DNA from: Allobosea sp. BK604
GTDB taxonomy: Bacteria > Pseudomonadota > Alphaproteobacteria > Rhizobiales > Beijerinckiaceae
Length of the DNA stretch: 64,000 bases
NCBI RefSeq assembly: GCF_004341515.1
Contig: NZ_SLZF01000010.1
Span: forward strand, 248,001-312,000
Reading direction: 5' to 3'
Made by a program: the position numbers and the translations under genes. This document shows, piece after piece, positions 7,466 through 48,874 of the stretch. A model generated the notes under the pieces. The model did not search any database. It saw nothing but the letters and a program-made list of their open reading frames with translations, and was not told the origin of the DNA. Within the stretch, counting starts at the first letter, position 1. Each line of letters starts with the position of its first letter.

Positions 7466-7534
7466 AGAGCATTTCCTTGTTTTCGCATCGGCTTTCCCGA
7501 AAACCGCAATCCACTTTTCGGGCCGATGCTCTAG
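7466..7534. repeat. Palindrome-ended intergenic element between gmk and the Bug gene
   Basis: Ends AGAGCAT (left) and ATGCTCT (right) are inverted. Inside are TTTTCGCATCGGCTTTCCC and ACTTTTCGGGCCGATG. The reverse complement matches the left part of the element downstream of lpxB (48765 on) nearly base for base. The element's right-hand CTAG supplies the TAG stop of the leftward Bug gene (7531-7533). No open frame or transposase-like content. Confidence 0.75.
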
Positions 7535-8514
7535 TTGGCCTGGATACCGGCTTCCTTGATCACCTTCGTCCAGCGCTCGGTATCCGCCGCGATCACTGCG
7601 GCGAGCTCTGCCGGGCTGTTTCCGATCGGCTGCGCACCCTGGGCCGCCATGGCGGCGACCACCTCGGGTACTTTCAGGGCCTCAGTGATGGCGCCGTGAA
7701 GCTTGCCGATGACCGCGTCAGGCGTTTTTGCCGGCGCCATCAGCGCATACCAGGACACCGCCTCGAAACCCGCGATCCCGGTTCCCTCGGCGATCGTCGG
7801 CAGCTCCGGCATCACCTTGCTGCGCTCGCGGCTTGCAATGCCGAGGGCCCGGAGCTGGCCGGAATCGATCAGCGGCTTGGCCGTCGAGAGCTGGGCGACG
7901 ATCAGCGTGACGTCGCCGCGCATCACGTCGGTCAGCGCCGGCGCGACGCCGCGATAGGGCACATGCGTCATCTCGAAGCCGGCGGAGCGCGCCAGCAATT
8001 CTGCCGCGAGATGCGCCATGCTGCCAGCGCCCGGCGAGGCGTAGGTCAGGCTCGCCGTCTTGGCGCGGCCCTGTGCGATCAGGTCCTGGGCCGACTTGAT
8101 CGGCGACTGGGCACTGACGACGAGCACGTTCTCGACGCTGGCGAGCTGGGTGATCGGGGCAAAGTCCTTCACCGGATCATAAGGCAGGCTGGCGAAGAGC
8201 GCCGGATTGACCGCAGCATTGCCGACCGGCATCAGCGCCAGCGTATAGCCGTCGGGCTCCGCCTTTGCGACGGCGGCAAGTGCGGTGTTGCCCTGCGCGC
8301 CGACCCGGTTTTCCACCGTGACCGGCTGGCCCCAGCGCTGGTTGAGCTTTTCGGCGACGATCCGGGCGAGCGCATCCGGCGCGCCGCCGGCGGCGAATCC
8401 GACGATGATGCGCAGCGGCTTGGTCGGGTAGTCCTCGGCCTGGGCCGGGGCGAGACTGGAGGCGAGGCCAGCGAGAAGAGCGCTGGCGATTAGAGAGCGG
8501 CGGCTGATGCGCAT
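7531..8514 (-). CDS. Bug-family (tripartite tricarboxylate transporter type) substrate-binding protein
   Basis: Periplasmic binding protein of the TctC/Bug family, which captures small carboxylates and other ligands. 327 residues. The N-terminus MRISRRSLIASALLAG is a cleavable export signal with a twin-arginine look (SRRSLIA), ending near AQA. The family signatures YPTKPLRIIVGFAAGG, NRVGAQGNTAL, PDGYTL, HVPYRG and ELPTIAEG are present. No TctA or TctB membrane subunit lies nearby, so it is an orphan and its ligand cannot be inferred. The start is ATG 8514; the frame stays open upstream but that part overlaps rsmA. There is no clear ribosome site; an 8-bp hairpin ends 7 bases before the ATG. 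Confidence 0.9.
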   Translation of the reverse strand: MRISRRSLIASALLAGLASSLAPAQAEDYPTKPLRIIVGFAAGGAPDALARIVAEKLNQRWGQPVTVENRVGAQGNTALAAVAKAEPDGYTLALMPVGNAAVNPALFASLPYDPVKDFAPITQLASVENVLVVSAQSPIKSAQDLIAQGRAKTASLTYASPGAGSMAHLAAELLARSAGFEMTHVPYRGVAPALTDVMRGDVTLIVAQLSTAKPLIDSGQLRALGIASRERSKVMPELPTIAEGTGIAGFEAVSWYALMAPAKTPDAVIGKLHGAITEALKVPEVVAAMAAQGAQPIGNSPAELAAVIAADTERWTKVIKEAGIQAN

Positions 8515-8521
8515 TGTCTGT

Positions 8522-8548
8522 CCATGCCGGAACGTGTCATCGGCATGG
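8522..8548. other. Perfect hairpin between rsmA and the Bug gene
   Basis: CCATGCCG (8522-8529) is repeated inverted as CGGCATGG (8541-8548) around an 11-base loop. It lies downstream of the rsmA stop, in the same direction, and just upstream of the Bug start. It could end the lpt-rsmA transcript or affect translation of the Bug gene. No T-tract follows on the minus strand, so it is not a classical terminator. Confidence 0.45.
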
Positions 8549-8570
8549 AGGCTAGCACGATCCGTGCCGT

Positions 8571-9419
8571 TCAGCGCTGCGCCGCCAGCGCATTGGCGAG
8601 CCGGACGAAGCCGGAGACCGGGATCTCCTCGGCCCGGGCCGTCGGATCGATGCCGGCCGCCTCGATCATCGGAACCGGATCGGGAATGACCGCCTTGAGA
8701 CTCTGGCGCAGCATCTTGCGGCGCTGGCCGAAGGCGGCGAGCGTGACCCGCTCCAGCAGCCGCTGCTCGCAAGGCTCGGGATGCTCGCGTGGAACCAGCT
8801 GGACGATCGAGGAGGTGATCTTCGGCTGTGGCACGAAGGCGGTCTTCGGCACGTCGAACAGGATCTTCGTCTCGCAACGCCAGTTCGCCAGCACGGCGAG
8901 GCGTCCGTAATCGGCGCGCTGTTCCGGCGTCGCCACGATCCGCTCGGCGACCTCGCGCTGGAACATCAGCGTCAGCGAGCGCCACCAGGGCGGCCAAGGC
9001 TCGAGGCTGAGCCAGCCGACGAGCAGCGGCGTTCCGATATTATAGGGCAGGTTGGCGACGATGCGCGCCGTCTCGCCCTTGAGATGGACCGAAAGGTCGA
9101 CCGCCAATGCATCGCCGTCGACGACCTCCAGGCGGCCGGGATAATGCTCGGCGATTTCGGCCAGCGCCGGCAGGCAGCGCCGGTCGCGCTCGACGGCGAT
9201 GACACGCGCGGCGCCGTTGGCGAGTAGGGCGCGCGTCAATCCGCCTGGCCCGGGGCCGATCTCGACCACGGTCTCGCCCTCGAGCGGTCCGGCCGCGCGT
9301 GCGATCCGGCCGGTCAGGTTGAGGTCGAACAGGAAATTCTGGCCGAGCGCCTTCTGCGCCATCAGCCCATGCCGCTCGACCACCTCACGCAAGGGCGGCA
9401 ACTCGTCGATCTGGCTCAT
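8571..9419 (-). CDS. rsmA: 16S rRNA (adenine1518-N6/adenine1519-N6)-dimethyltransferase
   Basis: Dimethylates the two adjacent adenosines in the 3' hairpin of 16S rRNA late in 30S assembly (KsgA). 282 residues. The SAM-binding motif [13 protein letters not shown] and the catalytic [11 protein letters not shown] motif are clear, preceded by the family QKALGQNFL. The frame is open further upstream, but ATG 9419 overlaps the pdxA stop as ATGA, the normal coupling for this pair. It is the last gene of the lptF-lptG-lptD-pdxA-rsmA operon. Confidence 0.96.
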
Positions 9420-10432
9420 GCGGACTGGCTGCTCTGGTGTGCCGCCATGCGGGCGGCGAGGCGCAATGCGGCGCAGAGGCTGTCCGGCAGCGCCACGCCC
9501 CGGCCGGCAATGTCGAAGGCGGTGCCATGGTCCGGCGAGGTCCGGATGAATGGCAGCCCGAGCGTGACGTTGACGCCCTCGTCGAAGGCGATGGTCTTGA
9601 TCGGGATCAGCGCCTGATCGTGATACATGGCGAGCGCGGCGTCGTAGCCGGCGCGCGCCCGTTCGTGGAACATCGTGTCGGCCGGATAGGGGCCGCGCGC
9701 CGCGATGCCGAGCGCCTTGAGCTGCTCGATCGCCGGCGCGACGATGGCATCGTCCTCCTTGCCGAGCGCGCCGCCCTCGCCGGCATGCGGGTTGAGCCCG
9801 CTGACCGCGAGCCGCGGCTCGGCGATGCCGAAACGGCTCGTAAGCTCGGCTGCGACGATGCGGCCGGTCTCGACGATCAGTTCCGTCGTCAGCAGCGTCG
9901 GCACCGAGCTGAGTGGGACATGGATCGTCACCGGTATGACGGCGAGCGTGTCGCACCAGAGCATCATCACCGGAAGTGGCGGCTTGCCACCATCTGCGGC
10001 CAGATGCGCCAGATATTCGGTATGGCCTGGGTGGCCGAAGCCCGCCGCATAGAGCACGCTCTTGGCGATCGGATTGGTGACCAGCGCCGCCGCGTGACCC
10101 TGCCGCACGGCCGCGACGGCACGGTCGATCGCTTCGATCGTCGCCGCGGCATTCGCGGCATCGGGGCGGCCGGGTTCGGCCGAGACCGGGTGATCGAGCG
10201 GGATGACGGGCAAGGCGTCGGCGAAGAGCGCCTCGGCTTCGTTCCAGCCGCAGGGCGCGATCGGAACATCAAGCCCGAGCCGCTGCGCGAGCCGGCGCAA
10301 ATGCTCGGGATCGGCGAGGCAGGCGAAAGGCGGCAGCGCCGCCTCCTGCCGCTGCCTCCAGGCCAGAAGACCGAGCTCTGGCCCGATGCCCGCCGGATCG
10401 CCTTGCGTCAGAGCGAGCAGTCTGGATGGCAC
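9416..10432 (-). CDS. pdxA: 4-hydroxythreonine-4-phosphate dehydrogenase
   Basis: NAD-dependent oxidation step of DXP-dependent pyridoxal phosphate synthesis. 338 residues. The motifs [28 protein letters not shown] and MYHDQALIP with [12 protein letters not shown] carry the metal-binding histidines. The start is GTG 10432 with a GGAG ribosome site 8 bases upstream. It is coupled to rsmA by a 4-base overlap and follows lptD by only 46 bases, leaving no room for the surA gene often found between them. Confidence 0.95.
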
Positions 10433-10478
10433 GTCGTTCTCCAGGGGGGCGGGCGCCCCGGCCGAATGCCGCCCCGCC

Positions 10479-13013
10479 TCAGCGCGTGCCCGATACGCCG
10501 TCGCCCGTGGACTGGCCGAGATTCTGCGAATAGCTGATCTCGCCCAACGTCCTCAGCTCCAACCGGAACATCACGGTGCGCGAATCCTTGTTCGTTCCGC
10601 CCATCGCCCGGTCGGCATAGGCCTGCGTATAGGACACGTCGAAGACCGTGCATTCATCGGTGTAGTTGATGCCGAAATTCATCGAAGCCGTCTGGAACGG
10701 CGTCGTGTTCGGATAGGGCGGAACGAAAAGCGCGGGGTTCAGTTGGGCGGCCTGATACTGGTTGCGCCAGAGCTCGCGGTCGTACTTGTACTTGTCGAGG
10801 TCGAACAGCACGCCGGCGCGCACGCGCCAATATTGCGCCACCTCGACCGAGCCGTTCAGGCCGAGGCCCTCGCGCCGGCGCGGGATGCCGAGTTCGGGCT
10901 GGGGCTCGTACCGGCCGTAATTGACGGAGGTCGTGAACTTGCCGGTCGAATAGCTCGCCGACGCATCCACGCGCTGCGCCTCGAGCGTGCTCTCGTCGAA
11001 GCGCGCCGCGCCGGCGAAGAGCAGGCCCTTGAACGGCGAAAGCTGCGCGCGGGCGACGAAATCGGACTTATCCGTATCGAGACCCGAGTCGAGGCCGGTA
11101 TTGATCAGGTCCGGCTGCGTGTACGAGTTGCGGCCGCCCAGTTGGTAGGACTGGCCGACCAGCACATTGGCATAGGCCTGCGAGCCGAAGCGGCCGGTAT
11201 AGAGCATGCCGACATTGGCGCGGGTGCCGCCTTCGACGCGGTCATAGCCCGAGAACTTGCCGTTCCACTCGAACAGGTTGTTGGTATCGAAGACGAGGCT
11301 CTGTGCATCCTCGTTGGCGATGCGCAAGCTGTTCGTCTCGTTCGGCCGGGCAATGATCTGCGCCACCGGCTCGAAGATATGCGTGCCCCAGCCATTCGTC
11401 TTCGCCACGAACGGATAGCGGTACATCAGGCCGACACCCGGCATGACGCGGCCGAAGACGTCGTCCGACGCGTCGGCGATCGTGGCGACGTTATAGTTCG
11501 GATACCCGGTCGTGTTCGGGTTGATCGAGAAGATGTCGGCCCGCAACTGGGCGTAGGGCGTCCACATCTGGCCGAGCGGGTCGATGAAGTTGCGCCGCCA
11601 GGAGACCTCGGCCGTAGCGCGAGCGACCGAGCCGGCGATGCCACGCACCAGGCAGGTGTTCTTCTGATAGATCGCACAGCCGTCGTAGAGCGCGTTGGGC
11701 TGGGTGAAGAGATAGGTCTGCTGGACCGGCAGTTGCTTGAAGGCCGCCTTCTCGCGATTGAGATAGGTGACATTGACGTTGAACTCGACCTCGCCGCCGA
11801 GGAAGGACGGCTTGTGGACGCGCTTGTCGTAATCGAGCACCGGCAGCACCGTCGGCTGCTGCTTCTGCCAATCGTAGGATGACAGCGTCTGGAAATAATA
11901 GCCGCGCAGGTCGAACCAGGCGGTCGAGCTCTGGCCGTTGAGATAGGCGGTCGAGATCGATTCCTGCAGGAAGGTCGTCGCGCTGATGCTCTCGCTCTTG
12001 ATCCGGTAGTTCTTCCAGAACCAGCGATCGGTGGACATCGCGAGGTCCCAGCCGAAATTCCAGCGCGGGTTGATGAAGAACTTGCCGGAGGTCTCGAGCG
12101 AGCCGCGGAAGGTCTTGTCGCCCGCGCCATAGGGCGAGGCCAGGAACGCGTCGGGGTCGGCCTGGAAGATGCCGGCCGCGCGGATGTTGTAGGAGCCGTT
12201 CTCGAGACGATGGCGCCATTCCGCCTGGCCGAGGAAGCCCTGCCGCGACAGCAGGGTCGGCGTCAGCGTCACGTCGTAGTTCGGCGCGAGATTGATGAAA
12301 TAGGGCATGCCGACGCCGAAGCCGACAGCGCCGGTATTGAGGAAAGTCGGCGCCAGGAAGCCGGTCTTGCGCTTCACCGTCGAATCCGGGCCCGACATAT
12401 ACGGGATATAGGCGAGCGGAATTCCGGCGAATTCGACCCGCGAATCCTCGTAATAGATCGTCTGCTCGGACTTCTTGTGGATGATCCGTGCCGAGCGAAC
12501 CTGCCAGAGCGGCGGCCGCTCCGGATGCTCCTTGCACGGCTCGCAGGCGGTGTAGATGCCCTTCTCGAAGACGAAGGTCTCGCCGTCGGTGCGCTCGGCC
12601 CGCGGCGCGGTGAAGCGCGTCTTGTCCGGGTTCACGACGCGCAGCGAATCGATGAATCCGTCGCGGAAGTCATCGGTCAGGTTGAAGCGGTCGCCGGTGA
12701 TGACGGTGCCGTTGGACTCGGTGATGCGGGCATTGCCGGTCGCGACCACGCGCTTGCTGGCGCGGTCATAGGTAACCTTGTCGGCCTCGATCGTGCGGCC
12801 CTGATACAGGATCTGCACGTCGCCGACGGCGGAAACGGAATTGTTCTTGTTGTCGTAGACGAGCTCGCGAGCGTCGACGACCATGCGCTCCTGCGGCTTC
12901 TGCGGCGCCTGGGCCTGAGCCCATGCGTCGCCAGCCGGCAGGACGTAGGCCAGGCTCGAGACGAGCGCAGTCGCCGCGGCCAAGCGCGCCATTCGTCTCA
13001 CGCCAGACGCCAT
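10479..13013 (-). CDS. lptD: LPS-assembly outer membrane protein LptD
   Basis: Outer-membrane beta-barrel that inserts LPS into the outer leaflet, working with LptE and the periplasmic LptA bridge. 844 residues. Signal peptide to about 32 (ending AWAQ), then an OstA-like N-terminal jellyroll ([27 protein letters not shown]), then a long aromatic-rich barrel of alternating strands. Cysteines occur as CEPC in the N-terminal part and as an isolated pair (DGC, NTC) in the middle. It is 36 bases downstream of lptG. A TTAACCAT motif (13029-13036) lies in that gap. Confidence 0.95.
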
Positions 13014-13049
13014 ACGCTCAACCCTAAATTAACCATAGGCACAGTACTG

Positions 13050-14141
13050 TTACCCATCTTCCTGGTGCAGGAGGGCGAGAGCGCCGAGCAACGTCCCCAC
13101 AATTGCCGGCAGCCAAGCGGCCACCGGTGGGTTGACGATCCCCGATGCGCCCAGCTCCTCGGATAATTGCGTCGCAACATAGAGCACGAACCCAGCCGCT
13201 ACGCCACCTATCACCAACTTGGTGACGCCACCAAACCTGAAAAATCTTAAGGAAACGGATGCTGCCACCAGCACCATGGCCAGCAGCAGCAGCGGCCTGG
13301 CCATAAGTGACTGATAACGCAGCTCGTATCGGGTCGTATCGAGGCCTGCTCTTTGTGTCCGTTCGATGACCCCCGGCATCGACCAGAAGCCGACGGAATC
13401 CGGCGGGGTGAAGCTTTGCCGCAACTGATCGGGCTCCAGTGTCGTCGCGAGCAAATAGGTCGTGTAGCTCTGTGGCTCTTCCGTGGCGGAAACCACCCGC
13501 GCGTCGGTCAATTCCCAATAGCCCCGATACAGCACCGCCTCGCGCGCCTCGATGCGCTCGCTGAAGCCACCCTCGGGGTTGAAGGCGAAGATCGCGACCT
13601 GCGACAGGCCATTGCCTTCGGGCAGGGCGGCCGCAGCGCGGATAATGGCCTGGCCGTCGACGCTGCGCTGGCGAATCCAGATGTCCTGCCCGGTGCCGGC
13701 GGCCTGGCCGGCACGGGCGAATATCGCCGCCTCCAGCGTCGTCGCGCGCCGCTTCATCTCGGCTGCGAGCGGGTTGTAGACCATGATCGAGACGAGCCCG
13801 ACCAGTACCGCCACCAGCGCTGCCGGCTGCAGGAATTGCCAGGCCGAGACGCCGACCGAGCGGGCGACGACAAGCTCGAGCTTCCGGCTGAGCGTCAGCA
13901 GCGCGAACATGCCGCCGAACAGCACGGCGAAGGGAAAGATCTGCTCGGCCACCGCCGGCGCGCGGAACAGCGCGAGCTGGATGACCTTGGGCGTGGTGGC
14001 GAGCGGCGAATCGCCGGCGCGCCGCATCAGCTCGACGAAATCGAGCGTCAGCACCAGGAAGAAGAAGGTGCCGAAGACGCTGAGGATCGAGCGCGCGAAG
14101 CGCTTCGTCAGATAGCGGCCGAAAGTCGAGACGAGCAGCAT
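13050..14141 (-). CDS. lptG: LPS export ABC transporter permease LptG
   Basis: One of the two YjgP/YjgQ permeases of the LptB2FG exporter, which extracts LPS from the inner membrane. 363 residues. Membrane helices near the N-terminus (about 13-33, 57-80, 98-118) and a C-terminal set (from about 270), flanking a large periplasmic beta-jellyroll, as in LptG. Its ATG shares one base with the lptF stop (TGATG), so the two are translationally coupled. LptB is not in the window. Confidence 0.93.
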   Translation of the reverse strand: MLLVSTFGRYLTKRFARSILSVFGTFFFLVLTLDFVELMRRAGDSPLATTPKVIQLALFRAPAVAEQIFPFAVLFGGMFALLTLSRKLELVVARSVGVSAWQFLQPAALVAVLVGLVSIMVYNPLAAEMKRRATTLEAAIFARAGQAAGTGQDIWIRQRSVDGQAIIRAAAALPEGNGLSQVAIFAFNPEGGFSERIEAREAVLYRGYWELTDARVVSATEEPQSYTTYLLATTLEPDQLRQSFTPPDSVGFWSMPGVIERTQRAGLDTTRYELRYQSLMARPLLLLAMVLVAASVSLRFFRFGGVTKLVIGGVAAGFVLYVATQLSEELGASGIVNPPVAAWLPAIVGTLLGALALLHQEDG

Positions 14142-15334
14142 CAGGCGCGCCGCAGCCGTGCCGTCAGGCCGTTGATCGGGATCATCAGCGGCTCGAAGAG
14201 CCGCGTCAGCCAGGGCCGCAGCCGGTTGCCGTAGAGAATCAGCGCGATCGAGATCACGATGGTCACCAGCGGCAGCACGTAGAGCAGGACGACCGCGAAG
14301 GGCGAGCGCACGCTCGCGGTCCAGGCGGCATAGGCTCCGATGCGCACCGCGCCGACGATCAGGATCGCGGCCTGGATCGCGGCGTTGCGCCCCTGTCGCG
14401 TCGTGCGCGCCTCGCCGAGCACGGCGAAAGCGACGAGCATGAAGGCGATCGGATAGAGCGGTGCCGAGAGCCGGTTGTGCAGTTCGGCGCGGAACCGGCC
14501 GGCCTGGATCTGGTAATAGCCCTCGTTCGGGTCCTGGTTGAGCAGGGCCCAGGTCGTGCGCTCGCGCGGCTTGTAGACCACCTTGTCGCCGCTGCCCTCG
14601 CCGTCGCCGCCGGTCGAGTCGCCCGACAGCGCCGAGAGGTTGAGGGCGTAGCGCTCGAAGGAGATGACCGAGGTCGCGTCGCTGCTCTTAGTCTCGCGCT
14701 GGATCGTGCCTTTTTCCAGCATCAGGAAGCTGTTGCCATCGGCTTCGACCGTGCGGCCGCGCTCGGCGATATAGACAGCCGGCTGGTTGGGGTCGCGCCG
14801 GTCCTGCATGAAGATGCCGAGCAGCGCGTCGCCCTGCTTCTCGCGATAGTGGAAGGTGACGCCCGAATCGAGCGCGACGAACTGGCCTTCCTTGACGATA
14901 TTGGCGACGAAATCGGCGCGGATCAGCGTGATCAGGTCGCGCAATGCGCGAAAACCCGCCGGCATCACCGAGATCGACATCCAGCCGACCAGGAGCGACG
15001 CGGCGATGGTCAGCACGACGAAGGGCCGGGTCAGCCGGTGCGGCGCGATCCCGGAGGCGTTCATCACGATCAGCTCCGAATCGCCGTTGAGCTTGTTGAG
15101 CGTGTAGAGCGTCGCCATGAACAGCGCGACCGGCGTGATGCCCGCGATCAGCGCCGGCAGCGAGAGCAGCGTCACCGTGAAGAAGATATAGACGGTCTGG
15201 CCCTTGCCGGTGATCAGGTCGACCTCGCGCAGCGCCTGCGTCACCCAGATCACGCTCGTCAGCCCGACCAGAATCACGATCGCCGCAAGTGCGGCCATCT
15301 TCAGGATGTAGCGGTCGATGAGGAGCAGACGCAC
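14141..15334 (-). CDS. lptF: LPS export ABC transporter permease LptF
   Basis: Partner permease of LptG in the LPS exporter. 397 residues from the start chosen. Two or three N-terminal helices ([37 protein letters not shown]), a periplasmic jellyroll in the middle and three C-terminal helices. The open frame runs up to 15439, but that would add an unlikely 35-residue leader across the pepA promoter. GTG 15334 gives [12 protein letters not shown] and has a GGAAG ribosome site, so I prefer it. It is the first gene of the lpt operon and divergent from pepA. Confidence 0.92.
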
Positions 15335-15373
15335 GCTTTCGCTTCCGGTTTGGCCAGCAAGGTCCTGGCGCCC

Positions 15374-15402
15374 TTGGACGGTTCGCCAAACACCCCCTAT
15401 GG
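15374..15402 (+). promoter_or_regulatory. Candidate promoter of pepA-holC
   Basis: TTGGAC (15374-15379), a 17-base spacer and CTATGG (15397-15402), with an overlapping TATAGC at 15403-15408 as an alternative -10. It lies in the divergent lptF-pepA gap and would give a leader of roughly 80 bases to pepA. Confidence 0.4.
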
Positions 15403-15492
15403 TATAGCCTTGATTATGGCGCAAACGGGAATCGTCCACGCCTTCGTCATTGCCCCTCTTCGATCCCTATTCCCCCCAATTGTGAGCAGCTT

Positions 15493-16986: not shown

Positions 16987-17035
16987 TTCGATCCCTGCGC
17001 CACCTGGCGCAGTGCACTGATATGAAAGGGATTTC

Positions 17036-17488
17036 GTGGCCGAAATCCTGTTCTACCATCTCCAGTCGCGCCCGCTCGAGCAGGTCCTGCCGACCTTGCT
17101 CGACCGCTCGCTGGCGCGCGGCTGGCGGGCGGTGGTCGAGATGTCTAGCAGCGAGCGCCTGGCTGCGCTCGACGACCATCTCTGGACCTATGCCGACGAG
17201 AGCTTCCTGCCGCATGTCACGGCGGCCGATCCCGACGCCGCCAACAACCCGATCGTGCTGACCACGAAGCCGGAAAATCCCAACCGCGCGCAGGTTCGGT
17301 TCTGCGTCGAAGGGGTCCGCATTCCCGACGCATTGCAGGACTACGAGCGCATCGTCCTGATGTTCGACGGCGACGATCCCGACGCGCTCGCAGCGGCCCG
17401 CGAGGATTGGCGCAAACTCAAGGCGCTCGGCGAGAGCGCCACCTATTGGCAGCAGGATGAAACCGGCCGCTGGGAGAAGAAAGCGTGA
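17036..17488 (+). CDS. holC: DNA polymerase III chi subunit
   Basis: Clamp-loader accessory subunit that contacts single-stranded-DNA-binding protein. 150 residues. The pattern EILFYHLQSRPLEQVLPTLLDRSLARGWRAVV and LWTYADESFLPH is characteristic of HolC, with ENPN and ERIVLMFDGDDPDA further on. The start is GTG 17036 with an AAAGGGA ribosome site. Its stop overlaps the GTG of the next gene (GTGA), so the downstream lipoprotein is probably translated from the same message. Confidence 0.93.
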   Translation: MAEILFYHLQSRPLEQVLPTLLDRSLARGWRAVVEMSSSERLAALDDHLWTYADESFLPHVTAADPDAANNPIVLTTKPENPNRAQVRFCVEGVRIPDALQDYERIVLMFDGDDPDALAAAREDWRKLKALGESATYWQQDETGRWEKKA

Positions 17489-17892: not shown

Positions 17893-17948
17893 GCGGCAAG
17901 TCTGGACGACAGTACTGAGGGGACGATCGGCGTCCGAGGGCTTTGGCG

Positions 17949-18434: not shown

Positions 18435-18457
18435 AACGTGTCGCCCGGGCTCCCGCC

Positions 18458-31030: not shown

Positions 31031-31402
31031 ATGCTCGATGCCAATTTCATTCTGCTCTATGTCGACAGCCCGGCTGCCAGTGCGCGCTTCTATGCTGATC
31101 TGTTTGGCGCCGAGCCGCTGGAGCAGTCGCCGACCTTCGCGATGTTCGCGCTGCCCTCCGGCGTCAGGCTTGGCCTATGGTCGCGCCACACCGTCGAACC
31201 TGCTGCCGCGGCGGCGGGCGGTGGCGGCGAGATCGCGACCGTGGTCGCTAGCGCCGAAGCGGTGAATGCCGTCCATGCCGACTGGAAGGCGCGCGGCCTG
31301 ACCATCCTGCAGCCGCCAACCGATCTCGATTTCGGCCGCACCTTTGTCGCGACCGATCCGGACGGCCACCGTTTGCGGGTCTTCTTCCCGTTCGAAGGCT
31401 AG
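31031..31402 (+). CDS. VOC-superfamily (glyoxalase/bleomycin resistance-like) protein
   Basis: 123 residues, a single vicinal-oxygen-chelate domain made of two beta-alpha-beta-beta-beta units. The sequence ILLYVDSPAASARFYADLFG and the C-terminal FVATDPDGHRLRVFFP are typical. The usual metal-ligand positions are only partly kept, so an enzyme cannot be named. ATG 31031 has a GGAGGG ribosome site. Its TAG stop is the first triplet of a palindrome-ended element. Confidence 0.82.
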   Translation: MLDANFILLYVDSPAASARFYADLFGAEPLEQSPTFAMFALPSGVRLGLWSRHTVEPAAAAAGGGGEIATVVASAEAVNAVHADWKARGLTILQPPTDLDFGRTFVATDPDGHRLRVFFPFEG

Positions 31403-31504
31403 AGCATTTCCGCGTTTCTCCGAATCGTGAAAATTCTCTATCTCCTTGTTTCGGCGCATTTTCTTCACGCGAACCGGTGCCCACTTCGCTCGAAAATGCT
31501 CTAG
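31399..31504. repeat. 106-base palindrome-ended intergenic element
   Basis: The ends CTAGAGCATTT (31399-31409) and AAATGCTCTAG (31494-31504) are perfect 11-base inverted repeats. The interior has TTTCTCCGAATCGTGAAAATTCTC and a CGCATTTTC...CACTTCGCTCG stretch of the kind seen in many rhizobial intergenic elements (my recollection). Its left CTAG contains the stop codon of the VOC gene. No gene inside. Confidence 0.75.
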
Positions 31505-32146: not shown

Positions 32147-33052
32147 ATGCCGAAGCTCCGCGACGAAATCGGTCGCCTTATTCTGATTCCGGCTGCGGCT
32201 CTGGTGATGGCGGGCGGAATGACGGCGCATGCCGGACCAGCGGAAGACGCTCTGCCGCGGCTGAAGGACATCCATCGCCTGGTGATGGATCCCTTGCGAA
32301 GCTTCAGCATCAGCGCGACGCTGGCCGAACTCGACGGGTTCGAGCGCGATCTTGCCGGCACGGCGCCGGACGGTATCGCCCGCGGCGAGCTCAACTATCT
32401 GCGTGGTTTCATTCTTTATCGTGCCGGCAGGACGCAGGATTCGCTGGCGCCAATGCGCGAGGCCCTGCGCATCGATGCGCTGACCTCGTTCCTGCCCGGT
32501 TCGGAGCGGACGCGGGCTCTCTACCGGCTGGCCAATCAGGCCGAGATGCTGAAGCAATGGCCGCTCGCGATCGAGACCTACCGGCAGGTGCTGCCGCTCT
32601 TCGATGCTGATCATGAGGTGACGCCGAACCAGCGGCTGGGCACGCGCGAGCGGCTGGCCTTCTGCCTGCACGAGGCCAAGCGCTTCATCGAGGCCCGCCA
32701 GCTCAATCAGGAGGTGCTGGAAGGCGGCGAGCAGCTCTTTGGCCTCGAAAGCGAGAAGCTTCTGGTAGTGATCACCAATCTCGCCCAGAACAACTACGAG
32801 CTTGGCGATTTCGTCGGCGCCCGCGCCATGCTCGAGCGCCGGCTGGCGATCGCCGGCAAGCATGGCGACGAGGCCCGGGTCGAGGACAGCCTGTTCCAGC
32901 TCGGCGTGCTCGCCTTCGAGCAGGGACAGCGGCAGGAGGCGGAGAGCTTCATGCGGCGCCGGCTGGCGCTCGCGGAGAAGAGCGGCAATGCCGGCCGCAT
33001 CGCCGAGGCAAAGGACGATCTCGATATCCTCTATCAGAAGCTCGGCCGCTAG
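32147..33052 (+). CDS. Exported tetratricopeptide-repeat protein
   Basis: 301 residues. A probable signal or membrane anchor near the N-terminus (LILIPAAALVMAGGMTAHA), then TPR-like helical pairs: GELNYLRGFILYRAGRTQDSLAPMREALRID, RALYRLANQAEMLKQWPLAIETYRQVLPLF and later ones to the end. Likely a periplasmic protein-protein scaffold; partner unknown. ATG 32147 has a GAAAGG ribosome site, better than ATG 32129. The TAG stop begins a partial copy of the palindromic element. Confidence 0.75.
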   Translation: MPKLRDEIGRLILIPAAALVMAGGMTAHAGPAEDALPRLKDIHRLVMDPLRSFSISATLAELDGFERDLAGTAPDGIARGELNYLRGFILYRAGRTQDSLAPMREALRIDALTSFLPGSERTRALYRLANQAEMLKQWPLAIETYRQVLPLFDADHEVTPNQRLGTRERLAFCLHEAKRFIEARQLNQEVLEGGEQLFGLESEKLLVVITNLAQNNYELGDFVGARAMLERRLAIAGKHGDEARVEDSLFQLGVLAFEQGQRQEAESFMRRRLALAEKSGNAGRIAEAKDDLDILYQKLGR

Positions 33053-33080
33053 CGCATCGGCCCGAAGAAGGGATTTCGGC
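33049..33080. repeat. Truncated copy of the CTAG(A/C)GCATCGG element
   Basis: CTAGCGCATCGGCCCGAAGAAGGGATTTCGG matches the left end of the elements at 7466 (reverse) and 48765. The rest of the element is missing or diverged. TAG at 33050-33052 is the stop of the TPR gene. A 64-codon minus-strand frame (33049-33243) reads out of it and is probably not a gene. Confidence 0.5.
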
Positions 33081-33276
33081 CGTTGGAAGCAGCCGGCGCG
33101 CAGACACGGAGCGCGATGACGCCGTCGACGCCTTGCTTTCCCGGCTCATAGCGTGTAAGGCGCACGCCATCCCACATGGGGAGCATCGCCTCGTTCCTGA
33201 GGCGTTCCGGTGACTTGGCAGCCCATGCCTCGTTCATTCGCACCCCAGAGGCTCAACCGGAAGGACGATAGACACC

Positions 33277-36253: not shown

Positions 36254-36256
36254 GGC

Positions 36257-40248: not shown

Positions 40249-40271
40249 AGGGCAGGGATCGGGAGAGGTTT

Positions 40272-41420: not shown

Positions 41421-41555
41421 CGACACTCTCCGCGCGCACAACCGATCCGTTCTCGCCGGTTCCGCCGAACTGATGCGTGGATTCGTCGGTGTGGGCGCCG
41501 CGTGGCCTCATGGCCACGTCGTGGTGAAAAATAATTCGTTAACGACAATGGACAT

Positions 41556-41583
41556 TTGCACCTCGCAGGAAACTTTGTAGAAG
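41556..41583 (+). promoter_or_regulatory. Candidate promoter of bamA
   Basis: TTGCAC (41556-41561), 16-base spacer, TAGAAG (41578-41583), in the 253-base rseP-bamA gap. Upstream is a CGTGGCC-TCAT-GGCCACG hairpin that could close the rseP message. The leader to bamA would be about 85 bases. Confidence 0.4.
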
Positions 41584-41673
41584 CGATTGGTCTGCAATGT
41601 CGCCGAGCCTGCACCCAAAAGGTGGAGGCCCCCAGTTGGGGTGGTGACCTGAGAAAATGGAATAGGCGACCCG

Positions 41674-44193
41674 ATGACGTCGACCCAAAAGAGCCGGTCT
41701 TTCAAAACGCGGCTCTCTCGATCAGTCGGACTTTCGGCCGTCATTCTGGCCGTTAGCGGTGGCGTTGTTTTTGCGCAGGCCGTGATTGTCCAAGGTAATC
41801 GTCGCGTGGATTCGGAGACGATCCGAGGCTACGCAGCTCAGGGTGGCCCGCAGGAGATTCGGCAGAGTCTGCTCGCGACCGGGCTGTTCTCGAATGTCCA
41901 GGTCAGCCGCCGCGGTTCTCAGACTGTCATCTCCGTGCAGGAGAACGACACGGTCAACCGCGTCGCCTTCGAGGGCAACCGCCGCCTCAAGAGCGAGGTG
42001 CTGATCGATCAGGTCCAGTCCAAGGCCAACGGGCCGCTCAGCCAGGCTCTGATCGATTCCGACGTCGCCCGCCTGCGCGAGGTCTACAAGCGCGCCGGCT
42101 ATGCCGCGACCTCGATTTCAGGCCGTATCGCGCCGCTGCCGAACGGCCGCTCGGACGTGGTCTTCACCATCAACGAAAGCGGCAAGACCGGCGTCAAGCA
42201 GATCAACTTCGCCGGCAACGGTGTCTATTCCTCGTCGCGCCTGCGCGGCCTGATGACGACGACCGAGTCGAATTTCCTGAGCTGGATCAAGACCTCCGAC
42301 GTCTATGATCCGGACCGCATCAATTCCGACCTCGAGCTGATCCGCCGCTTCTACCTGAAGAACGGCTATGCCGATTTCCGCGTCGTCAGCCACACTGACC
42401 GCTATGACGATGCCCTGCAGGGCTGGGTCATCGACGTCACCCTCGATGAGGGCCCGCAATACAAGGTCGGCAACGTCTCCGTCGATTCGGCTCTGCGCGA
42501 CATCGATCCGGCCAGCCTGCAGCGCTACGTCGCGACCTCGGCTGGCGATACCTACAATGCCGAGTCGGTCGAGAAGTCGCTGGTCAACCTCACCACCGAG
42601 GTGTCGCGCCGCGGCTATGCCTTCGCGCAGGTCCGCCCGCGCGGCGACCGTGACGCTGCCGGCCGCCTGATCGGCATCACCTATGTCGTCGACGAGGGCC
42701 CACGGGTCTATGTCGAGCGCATCAACGTGCGCGGCAACACCCGTACGCGCGACTATGTCGTGCGCCGCGAGCTCGATCTCGGCGAAGGCGACGCCTACAA
42801 CAAGGTCATGGTCGACCGGGCCGAGCGCCGCCTGAACAATCTCGGCTTCTTCAACAAGGTCCGCATCACCAACGAGCCCGGCAGCGCGCCGGACCGCGTG
42901 ATCGTCAATATCGACGTCGAGGACAAGGCGACCGGCTCCTTCGCCATCTCGGGTGGCTACTCGACCTCGGACGGCGTGATCGGCGAGGTCTCGCTGTCGG
43001 AATCGAACTTCCTCGGCCGCGGCCAGTTCGTCCGGATCGCCGGCACGGTCGGCCAGCGGACGCAGGGCATCGATTTCTCGTTCACCGAGCCCTATTTCCT
43101 CGGCCACCGCATCGCGGCGGGTATCGACCTGTTCTCGAAGTACAGCGACAACTACAACACCGGCCGCTTCGAGAGCCGCGTGACCGGCGGTCAGGTGCGC
43201 TTCACCTTCCCGATCACGGAAGAGTTCTCGATCACGCCGCGCTATTCGATCTACACGACCGAGATCGAGATCCCGAACACCTACGAGCGGCCCTATAACG
43301 ACTGTACCTTCCCGATCCCGGGCATCACGCCTGGCACTCCCGGCGCCCCGCTCGGCACCCAGAGCGGCTATAACTGCTTGACCAACGGCGAAGCCACGGT
43401 CGCGGTCAAGGAAGCCGAGGGTTCGCAGCTGACTTCGCTGGTCGGCCTGAACTTCAACTACAACTCGCTCGATAGCGTCCAGACCCCGCGCAACGGCTTC
43501 ATCGCCGAGCTCAAGCCGGAATTCGCCGGTGTCGGCGGTGACTCGAAGTTCCTGCGTATCGCGGCCGATGCCCGCTACTACAAGGAAATCTTCGACGACG
43601 TCGTCGGCTTCATCCGCGTCCAGGGCGGTCACGTCCAGGCGACCAGCGGCAACCTGCGCATGGTCGATCACTACTTCCTCGGCCCGACACTGGTGCGTGG
43701 CTTCGCCCCGTCCGGCATCGGCCCGCGCGACGTGCTGAACGACCCGACTGCGAACGCGCTCGGCGGCACCACCTATTTCGGTGGTACGCTCGAAATGCAG
43801 TTCCCGATCTGGGGCCTGCCGCGTGACCTCGGCCTGCGCGGCGCGATCTTCGCCGACGCCGGTACGCTGTTCAATTATGACGGCGGCTCGGCCTCGCTGT
43901 TCAACGGCTGTCCTGCGGGCTCGGAGGCGCGTCAGTTCAACGTCGCGATCGCGCCGAGCCAGCAGCAGTTCCAGAGCAACGTAGCCTGCGTGCGCGACAA
44001 GAACGTGCTGCGCTCGTCGGTCGGCGTGAGCTTGCTCTGGCAGTCGCCGCTCGGCCCGATCCGCTTCGACTATGCCTATGCCCTGACCAAGGACGATGGG
44101 CAGTGGGGCACCAACCCGCTCACCGGCATCACGGCCAAGTACGGCGGCGACCGCCTCCAGGCCTTCCGCTTCTCGGGCGGCGCCCGCTTCTGA
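41674..44193 (+). CDS. bamA: Outer membrane protein assembly factor BamA
   Basis: Omp85-family insertase for outer-membrane barrels. 839 residues. N-terminal signal region ending near VVFAQA, five POTRA domains (about 35-430, each starting with an IxVxGN-type strand such as [15 protein letters not shown] and [18 protein letters not shown]), then a 16-strand barrel with the lid motif [14 protein letters not shown] (VRGF) near 676 and a C-terminal phenylalanine (GGARF). It sits between rseP and lpxD, the usual place. Confidence 0.97.
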
Positions 44194-44197
44194 CGCG

Positions 44198-44217
44198 GCG
44201 GGGCGGCGACGCCCCGC
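44198..44217 (+). other. Hairpin between bamA and lpxD
   Basis: GCGGGGC (44198-44204) and GCCCCGC (44211-44217) around a 6-base loop, just after the bamA stop and 15 bases before lpxD. No T-tract. Possibly stabilises the 3' end of bamA mRNA. Confidence 0.35.
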
Positions 44218-44231
44218 AACGGATCCTTTAC

Positions 44232-45293
44232 ATGTCAGAACCTCAGTTCTTTCCGCTCGCGACCTCGCTGGATTTCGGCGAGGTCGCTGCCGTTTCAGGC
44301 GTGCCGCTTCCCGAAGGGGCCGATTCGGCGCGACGCGTCACCGGTGCCGCGGCGCTGGAGCATGCCGGTCCGAACGACCTCGCCTATATGGACAATGCGA
44401 AATACGTGGACGCTTTGGCGGCCACCGCTGCCGGGCTTTGCCTGGTCTCGCCGCGTTTCGCTGGCCGCGTTCCCGCGGGCACCACGGCGCTGGTCTCGCC
44501 CGCGCCCTACCATGCTTTCGCCAGGGTGCTCGCTCGGTTCTTCCCGACGGCGCTGAAGCCAGGCTCGGTCTTCGGCTCGCAGGGCGTGGCACCGGGCGCC
44601 TTCGTCCATGCCACCGCGCGGCTCGAGGATAATGTCACTGTCGATCCCGGCGCGGTCGTCGGTCCCGGTGCCGAGATCGGTTCCGGTACGGTGATCGCCT
44701 CCCATGCCGTGATCGGTCCGCAGGTCCGCATCGGCCGCGACTGCGCCATCGGTTCGGGCTCGACGATCCAGTCCGCCCTGATCGGCAACCGCGTCATCAT
44801 TCACCCGGGCGTCCGCATCGGCCAGGACGGCTTCGGCTTCGCCATGAGCCCGAAGGGCCATATGAAGGTGCCGCAGATCGGGCGTGTCATCATCCAGGAC
44901 GATGTCGAGATCGGCGCCAATAGCTGCATCGATCGGGGCGCCAGCCGCGATACGGTGATCGGCGAGGGCACCAAGATCGATAATCTCGTGCAGATCGGCC
45001 ATAACTGCGTCATCGGTCGTCATTGCGTCATCGTCTCGCAGGTCGGCATCGCCGGCTCGTCGACGCTCGAGGATTTCGTCGTGCTCGGCGGCCAGGTCGG
45101 GCTTGCCGGCCATCTCACGGTGGGGATGGGCGCGCAGGTTGCGGCGCAGAGCGGTGTCGCCGGCGATATCCCGCGCGGCGCCCGCTATGGCGGCTATCCG
45201 GCCCAGCCGGCAATGAACTGGGCGCGCGAGAGCGCCATGCTGAAGATGCTTGTGGCCAAGCGCGGCAAGGGCTCGGGCGGCTCAGAGAGCTGA
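44232..45293 (+). CDS. lpxD: UDP-3-O-(3-hydroxyacyl)glucosamine N-acyltransferase
   Basis: Third step of lipid A synthesis, adding the N-linked hydroxyacyl chain from ACP. 353 residues. An N-terminal uridine-binding domain (to about 105) is followed by hexapeptide repeats forming a left-handed beta helix; QIGHNCVIG carries the catalytic histidine. ATG 44232 gives [19 protein letters not shown]; the open frame upstream overlaps bamA and is not used. Confidence 0.95.
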
Positions 45294-45417
45294 GCCATGT
45301 CGAATTTGCTTGATCGCCCGGGGCGATTTCCGGCAAACCGGCGCTGACGAGCCGGCAAGTGACCCGGTAGATGCCGCGGCGATCCAAAGGGATGGTCGCC
45401 AGGGGAGATGGGACAGA

Positions 45418-45876
45418 ATGAACGAAGCGACTGCATCGCTGGGCGTGGCCGATATCCAGAAGATCATGGCCTGCATCCCGCATCGCTATCCCTTCCTCCT
45501 CGTCGATCGCGTCATCGAGATGAAGGGCGATGAATCCGGCATCGGCATCAAGAACGTCACCGCCAACGAACCTCAGTTCACCGGCCACTTCCCCGGCCGG
45601 CCGGTCTTTCCGGGCGTGCTGATGATCGAGGCGATGGCGCAGACCGCCGGCGTGCTCGTGGTGAGCGCGCGTGGCATCGAGGAGGCCGCGGTCAGCACGG
45701 TGCTCTTCACCACGATCGACAAGGCCAAGTTCCGCAAGCCGGTCGTGCCGGGCGACACCCTGCATTTCCACCTCACCAAGGTCGCGCGCAAGCGCAATCT
45801 CTGGTTCTACCGCGGCGAGGCCAAGGTCGATGGCGTGCTCGTCGCCGAGGCCGAGATTTCCGCGATGGTGGCGTGA
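45418..45876 (+). CDS. fabZ: 3-hydroxyacyl-[ACP] dehydratase
   Basis: Dehydrates 3-hydroxyacyl-ACP in fatty acid elongation, competing with LpxA/LpxD for the hydroxyacyl pool. 152 residues, hot-dog fold. [12 protein letters not shown] and the catalytic pair His57 ([11 protein letters not shown]) and Glu71 (MIEAMAQ). ATG 45418 is family-like with GGGGAGATGGGA upstream. A 124-base gap after lpxD holds no gene. Confidence 0.96.
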
Positions 45877-45913
45877 GCCGGTCGCGTTCCGCCGAAATCA
45901 GGATATGTCTTCC

Positions 45914-46723
45914 ATGAGCGCGACCATCCACGCGATGTCGATCGTCGACCCGGCCGCGCAGCTCGGCGAGGGCGTCGTCATCGGCCCCTTTTGCACGGTC
46001 GGTCCCCATGTCGTCCTTGGCGACGGGGTCGAGCTGATCAGCCATGTCGCGATCGCCGGCTGGACCACAATCGGCGCACGGACAAAGATCTATCCCTTCG
46101 CCTCGATCGGCAATCCGCCGCAGGACCTGAAATATCGCGGCGAGCCTTCGACACTGGTCATCGGCTCCGATTGCATGATCCGCGAAGGCGTCACGATGAA
46201 TCCCGGCACGGATGGCGGCGGGATGACCACTTCAGTGGGCAACAACTGCTTCTTCCTGGCGAATTCGCATGTCGGACATGACAGCCGGATCGGCAACAAC
46301 GTCATCTTCTCGAACAATGTCATGTGCGCCGGCCATGTCACGGTCGGCAATTTCGTCATCGTCAGCGGCGGCGCCGGGCTCCAGCAGTTCATCCGCATCG
46401 GCGATCACGCCTTCATTGGCGGCGGCGCCGGCGTGCTGAACGATGTCATTCCCTTCGGCATGGTCCGGGACAACCCGGCCCATCTCGCCGGCCTGAACCT
46501 GATCGGCCTGAAGCGCCGGAATTTCTCGCGCGAGCAGATCCATGAGCTGCGCCGTGCCTACCGCCTGCTTTTCGCCGATGAGGGCACATTGTCGGAGCGG
46601 GTCGAGGATGTCGCCAGCGAGTTCGCCGAGCATCCGCAGATTCACGAGATTCTCGACTTCATTCGCGAGGGCGGCGCGAACGCGATTTGCGTGCCGCGCG
46701 ACGTCAACGCGCCAGACCGGTGA
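45914..46723 (+). CDS. lpxA: UDP-N-acetylglucosamine O-acyltransferase
   Basis: First step of lipid A synthesis. 269 residues. Left-handed beta-helix hexapeptides through residue ~190 and a C-terminal helical domain (NLIGLKRRNFSREQIHELRRAYRLLF). NSHVGHDSRIGNN holds the catalytic histidine, and NPPQDLKYRGE is the family insertion. ATG 45914 is chosen because AGGA is correctly spaced; ATG 45905 is an alternative. Its stop overlaps lpxI (GTGA). Confidence 0.96.
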   Translation: MSATIHAMSIVDPAAQLGEGVVIGPFCTVGPHVVLGDGVELISHVAIAGWTTIGARTKIYPFASIGNPPQDLKYRGEPSTLVIGSDCMIREGVTMNPGTDGGGMTTSVGNNCFFLANSHVGHDSRIGNNVIFSNNVMCAGHVTVGNFVIVSGGAGLQQFIRIGDHAFIGGGAGVLNDVIPFGMVRDNPAHLAGLNLIGLKRRNFSREQIHELRRAYRLLFADEGTLSERVEDVASEFAEHPQIHEILDFIREGGANAICVPRDVNAPDR

Positions 46724-47583
46724 GTGCGGCTCCGACCGGAACCGAGGGCGCGGCGTTCCCGCTCGCCATCATTGCCGGCAGTGGCGAATACCCACCGCGC
46801 CTTGCCAGGCTTGCTGTGGCGCGGGGCCATGAGGTCTATGTCGCGGCAGTCGAGGGAGCGGCGAGCCTCGCTGATTTCGCGCCGGACATGGTTCGGGTCT
46901 ATCGCCTCGGCCAGCTCGGGCGGCTGCTCGACGAGCTGAAGCGGCGCGGCATCGGCGATATCGTGCTGATCGGCGCCTTGCCGCGCCCAAGCTTCGGCTC
47001 GCTGCTGCCCGAGGCCTCGACGCTGAAATACCTGCCGCATTTCGCCCGGGCCTTCCAGGGTGGGGACGATCATCTGCTCAAGGGCGTCGTGCAGTTCTTC
47101 GAAGGGCAAGGCTTCCGTGTCCATGGTTCGGCCGATATCGCGCCTGAATTGACCGCTCCGCTCGGCCCGCTCGGCAAGCGGCAGGTCCCCACGGTAGCGC
47201 GCCCCGTCATCGAGCAAGGCTTTGCGCTGCTCGCCGCGCTCTCGCCCTTCGATGTCGGCCAGGCGGCAATCGTCGCCGATCACCGTGTCGTCGCCATAGA
47301 GGCCGCCGAAGGCACCGATGCGATGATCAAGCGGGTCTCCGAGCTTGTCGCGGCCGGACGGTTGAAATTCGGCAAGGGCGACGGCGTCCTGGTCAAGGCG
47401 CCGAAGGACGGCCAGGATCTGCGCGTCGACATGCCTGCGATCGGTCCCAATACGCTGCGGAACCTGGCGCAGGCAGGGCTATCCGGCATCGCCTTGCGTG
47501 CCGGAAAGGTTCTGGTCGGCGACAGCGAGCGGCTCGGCAAGCTCGCCGACGAGCTCGGGCTTTTCGTCGAGGGCGTGGCGTGA
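46720..47583 (+). CDS. lpxI: UDP-2,3-diacylglucosamine diphosphatase LpxI
   Basis: Hydrolyses UDP-2,3-diacylglucosamine to lipid X; the alphaproteobacterial replacement for LpxH. 287 residues (DUF1009 family). LAIIAGSGEYPPRLA at the N-terminus, GALPRPSFGSLLPE, DIAPELTAPLG, EAAEGTDAMIKR and the C-terminal VDMPAIGPNTLRNLAQAGLSGIAL are family blocks. GTG 46720 overlaps the lpxA stop and its own stop overlaps lpxB, so lpxA-lpxI-lpxB are translationally coupled. Confidence 0.94.
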   Translation: MSAAPTGTEGAAFPLAIIAGSGEYPPRLARLAVARGHEVYVAAVEGAASLADFAPDMVRVYRLGQLGRLLDELKRRGIGDIVLIGALPRPSFGSLLPEASTLKYLPHFARAFQGGDDHLLKGVVQFFEGQGFRVHGSADIAPELTAPLGPLGKRQVPTVARPVIEQGFALLAALSPFDVGQAAIVADHRVVAIEAAEGTDAMIKRVSELVAAGRLKFGKGDGVLVKAPKDGQDLRVDMPAIGPNTLRNLAQAGLSGIALRAGKVLVGDSERLGKLADELGLFVEGVA

Positions 47584-48767
47584 GCCGGCCGTTCCGCCTG
47601 GTCATCATCACCGGCGAGGCTTCGGGCGACGCGCTCGCGCAGCGCTTTCTCGTCGCCCTGCGCCAGCGCCTCGGCGATCGGCCGCTCGAACTCGCCGGCG
47701 TCGGCGGGCATGCCCTGATTGATCAGGGCTTGAAACCCTTCTTTCCGCAGGCCGATATCGCGGTGATGGGGTTTGGGCCGGTGATCGCGCGGCTGCCCCT
47801 CCTGTTGCGGCGCATGAAAGATGCAGCCAAGGGCACGGCCGAATTCAAGCCCGATCTCCTGCTTACCGTCGACGCGCCGGATTTCACGCTGCGCGTCGCG
47901 CAGAAGCTGCGCCGGCGCGCGCCTTCGATCCCGATCGTGCACTGGGTCTGCCCGACTGTCTGGGCCTGGCGCTCCGGTCGGGCGCGCCGCATGGTGCCCC
48001 ATGTCGACCGCATCCTGGCGCTCCTGCCGTTCGAGCCCGCCGCCCTGGAGCGGCTGCATGGGCCGAAGACGGTCTATGTCGGCCATCCCGTGATCGAGCG
48101 GCTCGGCGAATTGCGCCCTGATGCGAATGAGGCGGCCCGCCGTGCCGATTCCGCCGCGCCCGACATCCTCGTTCTGCCGGGCAGCCGTCGCTCCGAGATC
48201 AACCATCTGATGCCGGTCTTCGGCAAGGCGGTGGTGCAGATCGCCAAGGCTGTTCCCGGTGCGCGTTTCCTGCTGCCGGCGGTGACGCATCTGCGCGGGC
48301 TGATCGCAGAGCAGGTCGCTGCCTGGCCGGTTGCGCCGCAGCTCGTCGACGGCGAGGCCGCCAAGTACGCCGCCTTCCGCAGCGCTCGTGCTGCGATTGC
48401 CGCCTCGGGAACCGTGACCTTGGAGCTCGCGCTCGCTCAGGTGCCGACCGTCGCGGCCTATCGCGGAGCCGACTGGGAGGCCGCGATCGCCAGGCGCCTG
48501 ATCAAGCTGCCGACCGTCATCCTGGCGAACCTGGTCGCCGGCCGGAATGTCGTGCCGGAATTCATCCAGCAGGACCTGACGGCCGACGCGTTGGCGCGCG
48601 AACTCCTGGCTGTCCTGGCCGAGGGGCCGGCGCGCGAGGCGCAGCTCGCCGGCTTTCGTGAGATCGAGAAGAATATGCGTTCGGCCGGCGCGAGCCCGGC
48701 CGCGAACGCGGTCGAAGCCACGCTGGCACTGCTGGCGGAAACGGCGGGCAGCAGCGCCAGCGGCTAG
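47580..48767 (+). CDS. lpxB: Lipid-A-disaccharide synthase
   Basis: Glycosyltransferase (GT19) joining lipid X and UDP-2,3-diacylglucosamine. 395 residues. LVIITGEASGDALAQ, GVGGHALIDQGLKP, VHWVCPTVWAWRSGRARRM, PGSRRSEIN and SGTVTLELAL are diagnostic. GTG 47580 overlaps the lpxI stop by four bases. The TAG stop is the first triplet of the composite palindromic element that follows. Confidence 0.96.
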   Translation: MSRPFRLVIITGEASGDALAQRFLVALRQRLGDRPLELAGVGGHALIDQGLKPFFPQADIAVMGFGPVIARLPLLLRRMKDAAKGTAEFKPDLLLTVDAPDFTLRVAQKLRRRAPSIPIVHWVCPTVWAWRSGRARRMVPHVDRILALLPFEPAALERLHGPKTVYVGHPVIERLGELRPDANEAARRADSAAPDILVLPGSRRSEINHLMPVFGKAVVQIAKAVPGARFLLPAVTHLRGLIAEQVAAWPVAPQLVDGEAAKYAAFRSARAAIAASGTVTLELALAQVPTVAAYRGADWEAAIARRLIKLPTVILANLVAGRNVVPEFIQQDLTADALARELLAVLAEGPAREAQLAGFREIEKNMRSAGASPAANAVEATLALLAETAGSSASG

Positions 48768-48874
48768 CGCATCGGCCCGAGAAGTGGATCGCGGTTTTCT
48801 GGGAAAGCCGATGCGAAAACAAGGAGCTAGATCATCGGACCGGATGCGATGTCCGGTCCGATGATTTAGCTCTA
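48764..48874. repeat. Composite palindromic element between lpxB and a Bug gene
   Basis: The left part, CTAGCGCATCGGCCCGAGAAG through ATGCGAAAACAAGGAG, is an inverted copy of the element at 7466-7534. The right part is a large hairpin: GAGCTA (48824-48829) plus ATCATCGGACCGGA (48831-48844), a 7-base loop, then TCCGGTCCGATGAT (48852-48865) plus TAGCTC (48867-48872). The two ends carry the stop codons of both flanking convergent genes (lpxB TAG 48765; Bug TAG 48874-48872). The hairpin may also act as a two-way terminator. Confidence 0.75.

Follow-up and report, generated by a model that had tools for sequence, protein, structure and literature searches.

Why do several genes in one short stretch of an alphaproteobacterial genome end in a TAG that is also the end of a palindromic repeat? 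The stretch in question, hereafter the window, comprises the 64,000 nucleotides at positions 248,001 to 312,000 of contig NZ_SLZF01000010.1 of Allobosea sp. BK604, where the initial annotation had placed the stop codons of five genes (lpxB, the two TctC-family genes Bug1 and Bug2, a VOC gene, and a TPR gene) in the terminal TAG of such elements. All five TAG triplets are present in the sequence, and the earlier count of some nine TAG stops among roughly 54 genes agrees with our own gene caller, which gives 9 of 55. Four of the five coincide exactly with an element end, the exception being Bug2, whose stop lies 3 nt outside the right end of an element of the family that we call B; the region 48764-48874, formerly read as two elements, is a single bipartite B element with a few flanking bases. 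We put at about three in four the probability that these palindromes are non-autonomous miniature inverted-repeat transposable elements (MITEs) of the IS630/Tc1-mariner type, which target the TA in CTAG or YTAR (Y, pyrimidine; R, purine), and that stop codons are among their ordinary targets.

Our analysis used a sample of 1.264 of the 7.63 Mb of this one Bosea genome, made up of the 64-kb window and the initial 400 kb of each of contigs C1, C3, and C5, in which a purpose-written dicodon caller found 1090 genes with 195 TAG, 99 TAA, and 796 TGA stops. Searches with nhmmer profiles kept 63 loci of family A (106 columns) and 35 loci of family B (111 columns), 98 elements in total. Elements of both families are ~105 bp long, and contain two hairpins, a linker with AAAACAA, and CTAG-like ends; an A copy folds at -38.7 kcal/mol (z -4.9), and the window B copy at 48764-48874 at -66.5 kcal/mol (z -9.4). 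Both outer ends are CTAG or decayed variants of it (YYRR). At A ends away from stops, position 1 is almost always a pyrimidine (left ends, 41 of 43; right ends, 41 of 43). Of the 49 A copies that are anchored at both ends, 19 have TA and 12 have the full CTAG at each end. CTAG itself is ~3.5-fold below second-order Markov expectation in the sample (368 sites, 1295 expected). An Rfam scan of the window gave no matches at gathering score. We rejected the site at position 5814 (CTAGAGCATCGG) as a B element, since only 12 bases match a B end and the model does not match there.

For 81 of the 161 element ends in the sample, a stop codon on the same strand lies no more than 60 nt away. Of these stops, 36 are located at offset +1 (Bug2 included), 3 at offset +7, which is the equivalent of +1 for the B right end, and 1 abuts the element (offset 0); the remaining 41 are upstream of the element, with three or fewer at any offset. 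This sharp spike bears out the proposal that element ends lie nearer to TAG stops than expected by chance. Within the same 60 nt, no same-strand stop was found inside an element beyond these terminal offsets, and no terminal stop is TGA. Counted by stop type, 37 of 195 TAG stops (19%), 3 of 99 TAA stops, and 0 of 796 TGA stops are located at element ends, although the zero for TGA is a consequence of the element's own sequence and does not count as an independent test. The share rises to 30 of 85 (35%) for TAG stops preceded by C. Among all TAG stops, those at element ends make up a larger part in the window than in the sample. Overall, 38 of the 98 elements lie on or abut a stop, 34 lie within 60 nt downstream of one, 24 are in other intergenic positions, and 2 are inside called genes. 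The type of stop cannot alone separate a stop donated by the element from one that was there beforehand, since a donated stop would be TAG by definition.

A link to IS630 is provided by the same genome. A profile search with Pfam DDE_3 returned a single match, inside a transposon of ~1.05 kb outside the window (C1:973382-974433), whose ends read CTAGAGCGTTTC..TTTGATTGAA, with repeats starting CTAGAGCGTTTC, and whose two frames match HTH_Tnp_IS630 (22.9 bits, cut-off 21.3) and DDE_3 (121 bits). The right end of family A matches the right repeat of this transposon at 22 of 30 bases, and at 18 of 26 beyond CTAG; among the CTAG-anchored 26-mers of the sample only A-like ones score higher, and the best that is not A-like reaches 15. 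The A left end matches the same repeat at 16 of 30 bases. Family A is short and contains no transposase gene, and judged by its sequence it looks like an IS630-type MITE. For family B, which shares with family A only the CTAG-like ends and the two-hairpin layout and lacks the IS630-like repeat, we infer the same IS630/Tc1-mariner-type assignment. The IS630-like transposon itself interrupts a B copy at its internal CTAG, and one CTAG is common to the transposon and the adjoining A copy. A preference of IS630 for the TA in 5'-CTAG-3' is stated in PMC6811581, and a 1991 study by Tenzen and Ohtsubo on the CTAG preference of Shigella IS630 is cited by title there and in PMC2170065. As a separate observation, the transposase of the IS630-like transposon (L300:1395-2446) is encoded in two frames that meet at an A run, as if expressed by frameshifting.

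Comparison with relatives suggests that family A has been mobile in recent time. The number of A matches ranges from 0 to 330 across 61 genomes of the genus, with 330 in this genome, 18 in its nearest relative (G036), and 140-236 in G001, G008, G019, and G032, four close relatives of one another (~92-93% DNA identity over the stretches compared). The presence or absence of elements differs among these four, in which we compared 10 elements in 100 kb of each and displayed 9. At position 64970 of G032 the site reads GCGT-TA-GAGC..GCTC-TC-G, compared with GCGTTATCG in G008, i.e., TA is intact on the left and is TC on the right, and a site common to G001 and G019 fits TA if the left copy has changed and the right side has gained one base. 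At the other displayed sites of these relatives the junction is not readable, and the 15 flank pairs compared between our genome and G036 are mostly too diverged for a junction to be read. The two sites that can be read, each with one TA copy changed, are compatible with duplication of a TA target.

If TA within CTAG or YTAR is the target, elements should be compared with the sites that remain free. Outside elements, free YTAR sites number 104 at stops, 93 in 3' flanks, 522 in other intergenic positions, and 231 in genes; the corresponding numbers for free CTAG are 49, 33, 131, and 79. Elements divide 38:34 between stops and 3' flanks, and free YTAR sites 104:93 (odds ratio 1.0, not significant); against free CTAG the odds ratio is 0.75 (not significant). 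Stop codons therefore look like ordinary targets. On present evidence, we regard TAG and TAA stops as ordinary YTAR targets of an IS630-type MITE at positions where insertion is tolerated. The transposase would insert the element into TA, preferably within CTAG and more loosely within YTAR, and TA would be duplicated. CTAG is rare in this GC-rich genome, and near gene 3' ends TAG and TAA stops would be the commonest YTAR sites. The product of insertion, Y-TA|G..., would join the TA of the old stop to the G that is the element's first base, so that TAG would remain TAG, TAA would become TAG, the protein would be unaltered, and the insertion would survive. Selection, and not targeting, would remove insertions in genes and before promoters. 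A stricter version, with a whole CTAG present beforehand at every site, was rejected, since TTAG and CTAA ends and TTA empty sites occur.

The stops of orthologues without the element bear directly on this. Of the 11 alignable G036 orthologues of element-bearing genes, 8 stop at the same codon and 3 differ by 1, 2, and 11 codons, which upholds the proposal that a mobile palindrome inserts harmlessly at the 3' ends of genes, where its terminal TAG serves as the stop. The further claim that the element donates the stop did not hold as a general rule: only the G belongs to the element, as its first base, the preceding T and A being consistent with a duplicated target, and the ratio of stops to 3' flanks matches that of free YTAR. 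In addition, the same TAG was often found in orthologues that lack the element, an outcome that the initial annotation had named as refuting. For example, alaC has TAG in 20, TAA in 3, and TGA in 6 of 29 relatives (loci returned), at the same codon throughout; all three element-free relatives have TAG at the codon where an insertion occurs at G001 85618; and G036, without the element, already has TAG in the gene at C3:71167.

Several results weigh against the target explanation, and the main one is an excess of TGA among orthologues. Seven of the eight same-codon G036 orthologues end in TGA and one in TAG. For comparison, TGA is the G036 stop of 10 of 27 genes that end in TAG or TAA here, lack an element, and have a free 3' flank (Fisher p = 0.018), or of 14 of 36 such genes when the control is not filtered for the 3' flank (p = 0.019). 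Moreover, prs ends in TGA in 29 of 29 relatives (loci returned), and the insertion at a stop at G032 82439 faces TGA in all three close relatives. These observations favor true donation, i.e., insertion in or beside any stop, often TGA, with the element's terminal TAG replacing the old stop at once, which we nevertheless consider improbable. Donation by splitting TGA after its T predicts mostly GA at the far end, but the far-end triplets of the 24 A ends at stops are TAG (12), TAA (4), CAG (3), TGG (3), and TGA (2), which fit TA-R with decay and not a split TGA, because only 2 of 24 have GA; we rejected a split after T without duplication on this count. Insertion at the TG of TGA followed by repair was likewise rejected, as it would leave genes that run on into the element and TGA at element ends, neither of which was seen within 60 nt. 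At the far end of the prs element the sequence CTAAG suggests that the stop was once TAA, and the TAG in most element-free relatives of alaC and in all those of the G001 85618 gene also argues against donation. For most genes it is plausible that a TAG or TAA was already present, but this is not demonstrated for prs, and donation onto TGA stops is possible for a minority of cases. We think it just as improbable that the palindromic transposon rewrites stops of any type in one step, with its own TAG and two-way hairpin acting as a portable gene-ending cassette; if this were true, a sizeable part of the TAG stops of this genome (the 37 of 195, and the 30 of 85 preceded by C) would be transposon ends.

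Other points on the same side concern parentage and supply. The B left end matches the IS630 repeats at only 10-14 of 30 bases including CTAG, and the B right end at 9-10 of 22; two intact TA copies were seen at none of the empty sites examined; and movement driven by IS630 is something we infer from sequence, no transposition having been observed. Stops are also over-represented relative to all intergenic CTAG (2.2-fold; 38:58 compared with 49:164, p = 0.004) and all intergenic YTAR (3.9-fold), so the agreement between elements and free targets is limited to sites in 3' flanks. This enrichment over all intergenic sites reflects a general 3' bias of the elements.

That bias is strong, and it can be read in another way. 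In intergenic regions of up to 600 bp, elements compared with free YTAR sites number 38 and 52 between convergent genes, 39 and 270 between tandem genes, and 0 and 136 between divergent genes; in longer regions there are 6, 10, and 0 elements, respectively, these counts covering 93 of the 98 elements. Element centers were found in none of the 151 divergent regions of the sample, compared with 44 in its 145 convergent regions. Together with the strong folds (z -4.9 and -9.4), the convergent and divergent counts would suit functional retention, in which the double hairpin acts usefully at the 3' end (as a two-way terminator or RNA stabilizer) and is kept between convergent genes, with stop overlap as a by-product. 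A terminator or RNA-stabilizer role has been proposed for repetitive extragenic palindromic (REP) elements and the related BIMEs. However, a like contrast between convergent and divergent regions is expected if insertions in front of genes are simply purged, and A copies at stops are conserved no better than the rest (Mann-Whitney p = 0.31). We regard retention as doubtful, if the most credible of the alternatives. The 3'-end distribution and the presence of palindromes with a flanking tetranucleotide are also what mobilization by a REP-associated tyrosine transposase (RAYT), reading a tetranucleotide beside a hairpin, would give. A REP survey gives GTAG at one end of the element, whereas the Bosea elements have no such one-end tag and are CTAG-like at both ends; with empty sites that fit TA duplication and A ends that match an IS630 transposon, we judge this explanation very improbable.

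The Bosea elements have several close counterparts in the literature. RUP of Streptococcus pneumoniae is a gene-less MITE of IS630-Spn1, ~107 bp long, with TA targets (PMC2229807, PMC3049150); the Bosea elements resemble it in size, in the lack of a gene, in the termini of family A, which are like those of an IS630 element of the same genome, and probably in TA targets, but differ in their two hairpins, in their CTAG/YTAR preference, and in their frequent overlap with stops, RUP being described as often landing in insertion sequences. Shigella IS630 shares the preference for TA in CTAG but is an autonomous transposon, and a consequence for stop codons is unmentioned in the literature examined. 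MITEPsy1 of Pseudomonas syringae is a 100-nt MITE that likewise inserts at CTAG or YTAA, but an IS5-like parent has been proposed and the full tetranucleotide is duplicated (PMC3189936). QMITE2 of Coxiella burnetii, located at a gene 3' end, affects the position of the stop and lengthens the protein by 33 residues, whereas the Bosea elements keep protein length (PMC5896051). Bru-RS of Brucella is 103-105 bp long, with 35-40 copies (PMC2267715). Within the Rhizobiales, the intergenic palindromic repeats also include RIME of Rhizobium, which is ~108 bp long with two palindromes. The likeness that we draw between our elements and RIME and Bru-RS is one of description, and no IS630 link is given for these two in the literature examined. 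Our findings suggest that at least one abundant family of Rhizobiales palindromes derives from IS630.

A Blast search with an A copy against plasmids returned 157 records at 60-90% identity (Sinorhizobium 67, Rhizobium 57, Shinella 14, and others). Among the matches listed (a spread list of 40), 13 places had coverage of at least 98%, of which we opened 10; 3 had no nearby annotation and 7 had annotated genes (RefSeq/GenBank). An annotated stop lies exactly at the element end in four of these seven (Rhizobium lentis, Shinella HZN7, R. leguminosarum Ta6, and BT01), which we give as an illustration and not as a rate, because the listing had already shown which rows had a feature under the match. 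In the Shinella HZN7 copy, both convergent genes stop at element ends, one at each. No exact match of stop and end was seen in the other three (Bradyrhizobium 41S5, R. leguminosarum Vaf10, and Agrobacterium vitis). The stop-codon rule is stated in none of the titles and abstract openings that we found in the open-licence literature. If correct, the target explanation ties the CTAG preference of a transposase to gene punctuation, in that TAG and TAA stops in GC-rich genomes would be a ready, harmless landing site, and it would account for part of the TAG stops of this genome. Genes ending in TGA would escape except where a TA close by is hit, a rule that can be tested for other elements with TA targets.

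Elements of the window and the genes that end at them (positions in the window)
Feature	Position	Strand	Evidence or remark
Family B element, left part	7451..7533	-	nhmmer model 2-80, E 1.6e-15
Bug1 (TctC family), stop TAG	7531-7533	-	TAG of the partial B element
VOC gene (glyoxalase family)	31031..31402	+	Pfam Glyoxalase 55 bits; stop TAG 31400-31402 is the A element right end
Family A element, full length	31399..31504	-	nhmmer model A 1-105; CTAG at both ends
TPR gene	32219-33052	+	TPR domains; stop TAG 33050-33052 is the TAG of the degenerate B element
Family B element, degenerate left part	33050..33117	+	nhmmer model 2-68, E 1.2e-4
lpxB	47580..48767	+	Pfam LpxB 263 bits; stop TAG 48765-48767 is the B element left end
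Family B element, full length, two hairpins	48765..48868	+	nhmmer model B 2-108 at 48765-48872
Target-type TA of the lpxB/Bug2 B element	48765-48766 and 48867-48868		Right boundary set by other B right ends
Bug2 (TctC family), stop TAG	48872..48874	-	Separated by 3 nt from the B element's right TA

The window genes vary in how far relatives inform on their stops. The VOC gene ends in TAG in 5, TAA in 1, and TGA in 15 of 21 relatives, and near-identical copies of its A element are present elsewhere in the same genome. For lpxB the numbers are 9, 2, and 18 of 29, with tails that vary in length; its stop position is not comparable, because protein length ranges from 387 to 399 aa including the stop. 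The convergent lpxB/Bug2 spacer is likewise short in some relatives, e.g., L092 and L093. The TPR gene had no match in 60 other Bosea genomes at E <= 1e-30, and so offers no empty site, and the best match of Bug1 within the G036 stretches compared is a 36% paralogue. Outside the window, pth ends in TAG in 6, TAA in 3, and TGA in 20 of 29 relatives, and is mostly one codon longer there. In another Bosea species, G010 (L232), pth has a TAA stop and a B-like palindrome starts right there, apparently an independent insertion. The gene at C5:180542 had one close relative, in G011, and a 1671-bp C1 gene was not used for the genus comparison, having one relative at 50% identity. We also observed a third palindrome family (GAGCAGGATGCGAAAAAGTGGGAACCGG...GATCCTGCTC), located directly 3' of lpxB in three relatives (L072, L073, and L075) and forming half of a composite insertion in the G032 stretch (L286-L290).

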